36,559 nt of DNA, from assembly GCA_013298545.1 (NCBI GenBank), contig JAAFIA010000017.1, forward strand, positions 1 through 36,559, in the 5' to 3' direction. The stretch is from Bacteroidota bacterium (GTDB taxonomy: Bacteria; Bacteroidota; Bacteroidia; Palsa-965). Numbering within the stretch: the first letter of the stretch is position 1; each line of letters starts with the position of its first letter. The notes under the pieces were generated by a model. That model had not been told where the DNA came from, did not search any database, and worked only from the letters and a program-made list of their open reading frames with translations. This document shows, piece after piece, positions 30,435 to 35,279 of the stretch. Made by a program: the position numbers and the translations under genes.

Positions 30435-30471
30435 ACGCCAACCCAGATTGATTTGGGTTGGCGTTTTTTTT
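30435..30471 (+). terminator. Terminator hairpin in repeat copy 1
   Basis: A 10-bp perfect GC-rich stem (30436-30445 with 30454-30463, plus an A-T pair) is followed by eight T. It fits the end of the receptor transcript. Confidence 0.8.
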
Positions 30472-30520
30472 GGGTGGTGCAAATGATGTTATCATGTGCA
30501 AATGAGTCTCCATCGGCAAA
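30435..30520 (+). repeat. 86-bp direct repeat, copy 1, downstream of the TonB-type gene
   Basis: It matches 32464-32549 at 82 of 86 positions. It contains a terminator hairpin (10-bp stem CGCCAACCCA/TGGGTTGGCG, 8-base loop, then eight T; 30435-30471), a second imperfect hairpin TGCAAATGAT-GTT-ATCATGTGCA (30478-30500; one mismatch) and a short GAGTCTC palindrome. It lies 68 bp past the stop of the receptor gene. The gap 30367-30713 (347 bp) holds this repeat, about 120 bp in which I see nothing, the CATA tract and a -7 box. Confidence 0.9.
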
Positions 30521-32459: not shown

Positions 32460-32499
32460 AAAAACGCCAACCCAGATTGATTTGGGTTGGCGTTTTTTT
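32460..32499 (+). terminator. Terminator hairpin in repeat copy 2
   Basis: The stem AAAAACGCCAACCCA (32460-32474) pairs with TGGGTTGGCGTTTTT (32483-32497), 15 bp with an 8-base loop and a T-run to 32499. It lies 18 bp after the T9SS protein stop. Confidence 0.88.
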
Positions 32500-32549
32500 G
32501 GTGTGTTGCAAATGATGTTATCATGTGCAAAGGAGTCTCCATCGGCAAA
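32464..32549 (+). repeat. 86-bp direct repeat, copy 2, downstream of the T9SS gene
   Basis: 82 of 86 positions match copy 1 (30435-30520) in the same orientation, 2029 bp apart. The four differences are three in the spacer after the T-run and one near the GAGTCTC word, so both hairpins are kept exactly. It ends 29 bp before the next gene. Confidence 0.9.
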
Positions 32550-33192: not shown

Positions 33193-34044
33193 ATGATTGA
33201 AATTGGGGATGATAAGATCGAGGATTTGTTTGAGCTTTCCTCCGGCATAAGTGTTGCTACGAAACGCGAGTTTGTAAGCTTGTATGATTTTGATTTTCGG
33301 AATTATTTTCAAGTGAAAACTATACTTGGCGAAACAAACGCTTGTTTGATTTTACGAATAGGAGCAATTGCTGATTACGAAAAAGTGTACTCTTATTTCG
33401 CTGAACTAGGTTTAAAACTTGTTAATTCCATTGAGGAACACGAAATGGTTTCGTTCCTACCAAAATGGTATCCCGAAATACAGGCATTTACTCCAAAAAG
33501 TGTGGTATATGAAACCGTTCCGCGTGCTGAAGAAATCGAAACACAATTCAAGTATCCCGTTTTCTTGAAAGGCGAAAGACAAACCAATCGGCATAGAAAA
33601 GAATTGTGTGTTGCGGAAAATAGAAGTGATTTGGAACGAATTTTTAATGTATGGAAAACAGATCCAATTTTGAATTGGCAACGAATAATCGTTCGCGAGT
33701 TTGTTTCATTAATGCCAATTGAACAGGTTCAAGAAAAGCAATTGCAAAAATCGTATGAGGTTAGAGTATTTGTTTGGTACGGACAGGTGTTGAGTAAAGG
33801 TCAGTATTGGGAGAGTGATCATAAAATTCAACTTACTTCAAGCGACGACGCTAGAATCGAAGCAATGACAAAAATTGTATTTGAAAAAATTCGTGTTCCA
33901 TTTATGGTTGTTGATTTTGCAAAGACAATGACCAATGAGTGGATTGTCATTGAATTGAATGACGCGCAAGAAAGCGGTTATGCAATGAATTCGAAATTGA
34001 ATTTGTGGAATAAGTTGATTGAAATTGGGCTTGATAAAAAGTAA
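33193..34044 (+). CDS. ATP-grasp enzyme, R2K-clade-like
   Basis: This 283-residue soluble protein has the C-terminal two thirds of an ATP-grasp ligase. The nucleotide-binding strands are FKYPVFLKGERQTNRHRKEL (K126, R134) and RIIVREFVSLMPI (R168, E169). The central strand is YEVRVFVWYGQVLSKGQYW (E189, R191), and the metal site is FMVVDFAK (D241) plus WIVIELNDAQESGY (E254, N256, G262). This pattern, with two Arg and a Lys and the ending ELNDxQxSG, matches what I recall of R2K-clade ATP-grasp domains, which are thought to form amide or related bonds. Residues 1-110 lack recognisable motifs. The substrate is unknown. The next gene starts 7 bp later and is probably its partner. Composition is AT-rich compared with the first 30 kb. 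Confidence 0.75.
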   Translation: MIEIGDDKIEDLFELSSGISVATKREFVSLYDFDFRNYFQVKTILGETNACLILRIGAIADYEKVYSYFAELGLKLVNSIEEHEMVSFLPKWYPEIQAFTPKSVVYETVPRAEEIETQFKYPVFLKGERQTNRHRKELCVAENRSDLERIFNVWKTDPILNWQRIIVREFVSLMPIEQVQEKQLQKSYEVRVFVWYGQVLSKGQYWESDHKIQLTSSDDARIEAMTKIVFEKIRVPFMVVDFAKTMTNEWIVIELNDAQESGYAMNSKLNLWNKLIEIGLDKK

Positions 34045-34051
34045 TAGAACA

Positions 34052-34666
34052 ATGCGTAAGCCTGACCACGAGAGGTTTGTTGAGAATGTATGTGTGCCAA
34101 ACGACTCACTCTGTATAAACTCCGTTGAAGGTGGTATTGCTTTAGCTGCAAAAACGTATGTTTTCAAATCAAGTTCAACGGAGAAAAAATCAGTAGTTCA
34201 ATATGAAGCGTTTGCTTTTTTAATTGATTTGATTCAACAAAAAGGTAAGCATGATCTCGTTTTTATTCTTTTGAAAAATGAGTGGGGAACGTCAAGGGTT
34301 GCTATGAAAATTGCCGAAATCAATTTGAAGAAAAGTAGCATTGGGACGATTCAAACCAATTTTGTTGTTAAGGACGATAAGGTGGTTTCGTATGCCCTAG
34401 GCGAAATGAAAAATGTTTCATTAGAGCAATTTCAGTCGATTCTTTATAGTGCAGTATATGCGGTTTTTTCAATTCCCAATGTAGCTGAAGAAAGACAATT
34501 TGATCAATTATTATCACAGGAGATAAAATTTGATTATTGGAATAATTCTCAGGCAATTATAGATTTCGTTATTGGAAAAGGTGGTGTGATTTTGAATGTA
34601 TATGGGAAATTTGATGATCCTGATGTTACTGCTGCGATTATTGGACTAAAAGAGTTTTTGATTTGA
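34052..34666 (+). CDS. Unrecognised cytoplasmic protein paired with the ATP-grasp enzyme
   Basis: This 204-residue protein has no signal peptide or membrane segment, and I recognise no family. The ATG at 34052 lies 7 bp after the stop of the ATP-grasp gene. Visible features are a mixed alpha/beta pattern: a helix (YEAFAFLIDLIQQ), strands DLVFILLK and IGTIQTNFVVKDDKVVSYAL, a helix after VSLEQFQSILYSAVYAVF, and the C-terminal IIDFVIGKGGVILNVYGKFDD with ITGLKEFL-like end (IIGLKEFLI). Tight coupling suggests it is a substrate, a regulator or a co-enzyme of its neighbour (inference). Single residues cannot be called catalytic. The 3' end abuts a remnant of a third gene on the other strand. Confidence 0.65.
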   Translation: MRKPDHERFVENVCVPNDSLCINSVEGGIALAAKTYVFKSSSTEKKSVVQYEAFAFLIDLIQQKGKHDLVFILLKNEWGTSRVAMKIAEINLKKSSIGTIQTNFVVKDDKVVSYALGEMKNVSLEQFQSILYSAVYAVFSIPNVAEERQFDQLLSQEIKFDYWNNSQAIIDFVIGKGGVILNVYGKFDDPDVTAAIIGLKEFLI

Positions 34667-34823
34667 TTACTGAGTTCAATCGTTTTGATATTTTCTGCTT
34701 CATGATTTCAATAGCTTTAAAAACGCACTTCAAAATTATACGCTCCAACATCGGATAAAATTCTTGCGCAATGCGTTCGTGTCCTTTTTTGTTGGGGTGC
34801 GAATTGGTTTTTGAAATGCGTTA
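34638..34823 (-). pseudogene. 3' remnant of an SGNH-hydrolase-like gene
   Basis: The minus strand encodes ISKTNSHPNKKGHERIAQEF followed by YPMLERIILK and ends at TAA (34638-34640). The NSHPNKKGH block is the last conserved block of SGNH hydrolases (D/N-x-H-P-N) and is close to NDNHPNAIGHQKI in the intact gene 700 bp away on the same strand. In frame, it is preceded by a stop codon (34821-34823), after which the frame stays open for 64 more codons (to 34824-35015) but overlaps a better plus-strand reading. No start is present. So it is a truncated copy, possibly also with a nonsense mutation. The first 28 bases overlap the end of the gene at 34052. Confidence 0.6.
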
Positions 34824-35279
34824 ATCCATGCGGTTTACATCGTCCCAAATGGTTTCGACGTAACGGACGTTCATAAGCATAAACGTCAAATCACGCCCAT
34901 CTACGATCACGGCATAACTGCAATTGTCGAAAACGATACTCCGCAATGTTTTACATACAGTGATACCGTAATTGAAAGCACTTCTTATTACAGAAATGGG
35001 CAGGTTAAGTTTAAATCAAAAACATATTATGACCGTTGGGGCGTATATAAAGTTGTAGAAGAAAAATACAAAAGCAATGGAGATAGTAAATATGTTTTTG
35101 TACTCGCTCATGGTGTTCAACTGATTTACCAAGCGAAATACGGAAAGAATAATGAAATTATTTTCGAAAAATATTTTACGTACAATAACAAGGGTACGTT
35201 GACTCAGATCGAAACGAAAAGAAATGGAAATAGCCGCGTACAAGATTTTGATGTCGATGTTTTGGGCGAGCCAATTTGA
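34815..35279 (+). pseudogene. 5'-truncated gene, YwqK/MORN-like C-terminal part
   Basis: An open plus-strand frame of 154 codons runs from the TGA at 34812-34814 to the stop at 35277-35279 with no ATG, GTG or TTG near its beginning. The later half reads as real protein: YYRNGQVKFKSKTYYDRWGV, KYVFVLAHGVQLIYQAKYGK and IIFEKYFTYNNKGTLTQIET, which is the style of MORN-like or YwqK antitoxin-component repeats (x-NGQ-x-K-x-x-x-x-Y-D-x-x-G). The first 50 codons or so are less convincing and coincide with the minus-strand SGNH remnant frame, so the break point lies somewhere in 34815-34970. It is probably a gene that lost its 5' end in the same rearrangement. Confidence 0.55.

Follow-up and report, generated by a model that had tools for sequence, protein, structure and literature searches.

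The R2K clade of ATP-grasp proteins was defined by Burroughs, Zhang and Aravind in 2015, and eukaryotic CDC123 is included in it (PMC4431377). Its members were proposed to be ligases making peptide-like bonds, and also to serve as toxins or effectors. CDC123-type R2K genes were found in polymorphic-toxin loci with SUKH immunity genes, and R2K.3 enzymes were linked to GNATs and possible peptide-metabolite synthesis as well (PMC4431377). Roles in conflicts were proposed for R2K enzymes in two publications (PMC4431377, PMC7824862). In the sources consulted, no substrate or activity was found for any bacterial R2K.2 or R2K.3 enzyme.

Family assignment and predicted fold of the ligase

The window, i.e. 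the whole stretch of DNA analyzed here (36,559 nucleotides), contains a plus-strand ORF of 283 aa with an ATG start at positions 33193..34044, hereafter the ligase gene. The product was compared with the Pfam R2K profiles and scored 63.3 bits with R2K_3 (E 4e-17, cut-off 26.3) and 44.2 bits with R2K_2 (cut-off 26.2). Scores above the curated cut-off of an R2K profile define members of the clade, and the ligase is thus an R2K-clade ATP-grasp protein, in agreement with the preliminary description, which had called it R2K-like. The Lys, Arg, Glu, and Asn residues claimed there for catalysis are present (Lys126, Arg168, Glu189-x-Arg191, Asp241, and Glu254-x-Asn256) and are kept in homologues: when 31 relatives were aligned, Lys126, Arg168, Glu189, Arg191, Asp241, and Glu254 were invariant, and Asn256 and Asp257 nearly invariant. 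The RAGNYA lysine of strand 2 that characterizes the clade is represented by Lys126, and the ExR motif on the first strand of the kinase-like half by Glu189-Val-Arg191. The clade's second lysine, located in a loop, is replaced by Arg133. Arg or Lys was observed at position 133 across the subfamily described below, and both are permitted at this loop position by the authors of the clade (PMC4431377).

The ligase and the R2K.3 family (Pfam PF14243, R2K_3) have in common the pre-ATP-grasp and ATP-grasp layout, the strand-2 Lys, the ExR motif, the Asp, and the final Glu motif, as well as a sporadic, horizontally transferred distribution. They differ at three sites. The final motif is ExGD in R2K.3, where it defines the family, but ELND in the window protein; the second lysine of R2K.3 corresponds to Arg133; and the pre-ATP-grasp domain, which exists in the window protein, has R-x-GAI where R2K.3 has the RGWM stretch. 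The classical R2K.3 proteins in our set (L002, L007, and L009-L011) carried ELGD, whereas the window protein and its subfamily carried E[LCV]ND. Since ExGD is missing, the protein is best called an R2K-clade member of a divergent R2K.3-like subfamily. The R2K.2 family (PF18299, former DUF4343), whose profile was also above the cut-off, has an ExN-type motif, but its score was below that of R2K_3 and the R2K.2 proteins were placed outside the group in the tree.

The first relatives, obtained by single-sequence search, were all distant: a second copy in the same genome (L002, a classical R2K.3 protein, 26% identical and with ELGD as its final motif), a few plasmid genes, and a gene of an uncultured 485-kb phage. 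When 395 genomes of the class were searched with a profile, L100 (42% identical over the full length, the closest relative of the window ligase) and L103 (35%), both from Bacteroidota, were obtained, and two scans of viral contigs added L105 and L129. The subfamily consists of the window ligase and these four proteins, which come from two Bacteroidota genomes, a phage contig (L105), and a recombinase-borne element (L129). The aligned members were 35-42% identical over the full length, and the five share the signature KGxRQTx[RK]H and E[LCV]NDxQESG[YF]. In the tree they formed one group (support 100/100) apart from the phage and classical R2K.3 sets, with an uncertain position between the two (87/47, long branches). 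The subfamily, with ExND replacing the R2K.3-defining ExGD, is modestly new, as a rare branch of a known clade.

Viral contigs were also scanned with an alignment, and 40 related loci were retrieved, mostly on large contigs. Their proteins mostly had ELND, as in the window protein, rather than ELGD. This large-phage family (40 IMG/VR loci and phage LR745208; related to PHROG 7313) resembles the window ligase in ELND, length, and pre-ATP-grasp layout. However, it is 22-29% identical to it, makes up a separate branch of the tree, and has KGETNSRK...NDGQMSG where the window ligase has KGERQTNRH...NDAQESGY. As an observation in its own right, about 40 viral contigs (L039-L078), many of them large (up to ~485 kb), carry a coherent R2K family with V[LV]KGETNSRKxxW ... 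ELNDGQMSGLS; published mentions of R2K in jumbo phages are sporadic only.

The structure of the ligase was predicted with AlphaFold from the alignment of relatives (mean pLDDT 87.4, pTM 0.87), and a Foldseek search of the PDB matched the model to ArgX, LysX, D-Ala-D-Ala ligase, RimK, and PsnB, with E values from 1e-11 to 1e-8. These enzymes join an ATP-activated carboxylate to an amine or hydroxyl nucleophile. In the model, the window ligase has the same fold and ATP site as ArgX/LysX, RimK, D-Ala ligase, and the graspetide ligase PsnB, which are enzymes of carboxylate-amine ligation, but is just 9-16% identical to them. Neither a LysW-like carrier protein nor a graspetide precursor was recognized beside the ligase gene. 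From the predicted fold and the residues, we infer that the protein is likely an ATP-driven amide-forming enzyme, and it looks active. Mg-ATP would be bound between the two lobes (Lys126; metal site at Glu254/Asn256), a carboxylate would be phosphorylated to an acyl phosphate, and the acyl phosphate would then be joined to an amine, resulting in an amide. The target would probably be a protein or a peptide.

The downstream ORF and the local DNA

The ORF downstream of the ligase gene, hereafter the partner, occupies positions 34052..34666 of the plus strand (204 aa from the first ATG). The two ORFs are separated by 7 bp (34045..34051), as the preliminary description had stated. The program-listed version of the partner has 215 aa, with a TTG start at 34019, and would overlap the ligase gene. 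The in-frame codon score was 0.20 bits/codon for the ligase and 0.22 (0.221) for the partner, and the five other frames were negative.

The partner had been described as a protein of no recognized family, with no export signal, and both statements hold. Pfam (up to E 10), NCBIfam, and PADLOC (E up to 1) were searched with it and gave no match, and neither PHROGs nor the PDB gave a significant one; no export signal was seen at the N-terminus by eye, and the protein is probably cytoplasmic. No relatives were obtained in single-sequence scans of genome contigs and viral contigs, in tblastn searches of plasmids and phages, or in the other 11 genomes of the family. Whole-genome searches covered two overlapping draws of 395 genomes each, one at the level of the class and one at that of the phylum (one genome per species, part of the phylum), and the weak matches that they returned were judged to be due to chance. 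Three candidate relatives were rejected: the match in G303 was in a frame with eight stops, and those in G487 and G665 were inside a methyltransferase-like and a glycosyltransferase-like ORF, respectively. When all 4,777 ORFs of the fetched loci were compared with the partner, nothing was found beyond two of these chance matches. With no relative in any of the collections searched (genomes, plasmids, phages, viral contigs, and the PDB), the partner is an orphan within them. The single-sequence AlphaFold model of the partner was unusable (pLDDT 36.6), and for this reason no fold search was done with it. The partner is best read as a genuine lineage-specific gene rather than a conserved component.

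Of the 19 same-strand gaps in the window, 6 are no longer than 16 bp, so the 7-bp gap is ordinary, and since tight spacing is normal here, spacing alone is uninformative about a dedicated pair. No strong promoter or terminator site was found between the ligase and the partner; promoter-like sites were fewer than in shuffles and terminator-like sites about as many. The two genes likely share a transcript.

The GC content was 0.36 for the ligase and 0.35 for the partner, whereas the 16 upstream window genes used for comparison ranged from 0.39 to 0.48. The upstream ABC transporter-ppx block is conserved in the genus, the sequence after ppx is not, and relatives in the genus are devoid of the ligase gene despite having the conserved block. 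Because the region downstream of ppx is unconserved, no empty insertion site could be defined by synteny. The pair sits in a variable, accessory part of the chromosome, and its earlier placement in AT-rich accessory DNA beside gene scars was confirmed. The scars, at 34667-35278, are degraded fragments. One, on the minus strand, is interrupted by a stop and resembles the C-terminal end of an SGNH hydrolase; the other, on the plus strand, is the C-terminal part of a different protein and lacks a start. Beyond the window, the far side of the contig contains a surface-polysaccharide region followed by ribosomal genes.

Two repeats were also observed. A 22-nt imperfect direct repeat (20/22) is found at 33194-33215 and 34016-34037, at the two extremities of the ligase ORF; it was reached by 0 of 150 codon shuffles, and one other gene of the window has a stronger internal repeat. 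An 86-nt repeat (95% identical) follows two successive genes at 30435-30520 and 32464-32549. It contains a strong hairpin and then a T run, and looks like a duplicated terminator.

Pairing in related loci and the probable role of the ligase

The preliminary description had proposed an undescribed two-gene system. Pairing across distant genomes was sought and was absent from the loci read: no partner-like gene was found beside the 4 other subfamily members (0/4), in the 40 related phage-contig loci (0/40), or next to the classical R2K.3 genes whose loci were read, among them the second copy carried by this genome. The repeated adjacency in independent genomes that a conserved two-gene system predicts was thus absent from the sampled loci, with the limits that a partner diverged beyond recognition would be missed and that, with 4 other subfamily members available, so would a rare partnership restricted to close relatives outside the sample. 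In L100 and L103, the flanking genes are unrelated. L105 is a phage contig with terminase and portal genes directly upstream of the R2K gene, and L129 (405-6009) is a recombinase-borne element with serine recombinases and a WapI-like immunity gene. Of the earlier interpretation, the enzyme class, the residues, the unrecognized partner, and the accessory DNA were upheld, and the dedicated two-gene system was not.

Our preferred explanation, with a probability of roughly 0.6, is a stand-alone, horizontally scattered accessory R2K amide ligase with a lineage-specific orphan on the same transcript. Given that the subfamily occurs elsewhere without the partner (on chromosomes, on a phage contig, and within a recombinase-borne element), the ligase is most likely a self-sufficient accessory enzyme, which would act where bacteria and mobile elements are in conflict. 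By analogy, a conflict role is probable on the basis of the relatives' neighborhoods, namely the conflict-type genes near L105 and L129, and the published proposals, not of this locus. Against such a role, there is no strong conflict gene within the window. When the list of window ORFs was read, no prophage or defense genes were recognized, and the ligase protein had no match among PADLOC models (E up to 1), which does not place it in a known anti-phage defense system.

A chance adjacency in accessory DNA, with the partner as an unrelated orphan having no functional link to the ligase, has only slightly less than even odds, and it overlaps the preferred explanation, which would still allow a weak link. 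The lack of repeated pairing in any sampled locus, the orphan status of the partner, the turnover indicated by the gene scars, and the frequency of short gaps agree with it. The partner frame is, however, intact, codon-typical, and on the same presumed transcript.

In a dedicated two-gene cassette, the ligase would modify the downstream protein, either a substrate or an immunity-type protein, and the pair would evolve so quickly that homologues of the partner escape recognition. We consider this unlikely. The common strand, the 7-bp gap, and the similarly low GC content fit such a cassette, and so do the WapI-like immunity gene beside one subfamily member (L129) and the occurrence of CDC123-type R2K genes with SUKH immunity genes in polymorphic-toxin loci (see above). 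Immunity-type proteins are often orphan-like, as the partner is. However, short gaps are common in the window, no comparable downstream gene is present in L100 (42% identical), L103, or L105, and the 261-aa ORF downstream in L129 is unrelated to the partner by sequence. A fast-evolving form of the modifier-substrate or modifier-immunity cassette, where the R2K ligase would tag its neighbor and the partner slot would be filled differently in each genome, is a good deal less probable again.

Least probable, and by our estimate very improbable, is a toxin-antitoxin-like pair made of a modifying toxin (the ligase) and its neutralizer (the partner). The gene order and size are compatible with it, as is the proposal of R2K members as toxins or effectors, but L100, L103, and L105 are without an adjacent small partner, from which it follows that the ligase is tolerated alone, and there was no PADLOC match.

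The subfamily is a compact target for biochemistry: it is small, its ExN site is restored, and it is found on chromosomes, on a phage contig, and in a recombinase element with no fixed partner, which speaks against looking for an obligate one at this locus. A tagging of proteins by R2K ligases in conflicts, if real, would also have a bearing on the origin of eukaryotic CDC123.

Other gene arrangements near R2K genes

No neighbor common to the phage R2K genes was found, and the groups seen were confined to subsets of similar phages. In L105 (3081-5374), an ORF with a CARF domain and a PD-DExK/NERD-like ORF lie on the other strand downstream of the R2K gene and look like a split CARF nuclease. 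In L129, the R2K_3-like gene is overlapped by an R2K_2 gene (14 bp) and by the 261-aa gene, which is of no recognized kind (4 bp); R2K.2-R2K.3 linkage of this type was already described for firmicutes (PMC4431377). Runs of 2-3 consecutive ATP-grasp genes, one of them R2K-like, were seen in two Bacteroidota genomes (L014, 1480-3427; L015, 389-2835) and may be peptide-building clusters. Two genes downstream of an R2K subfamily member in genome G308 (L131, 10545-12675), an AAA-type ATPase gene and a second gene form a pair that, by eye only, looks like the RloA/RloB type. Also by eye only, a KptA/Tpt1-like RNA 2'-phosphotransferase gene was noticed on the window's own contig, outside the window (L133, 13522-14085), where it adjoins a ketoacyl-ACP-synthase-like gene.
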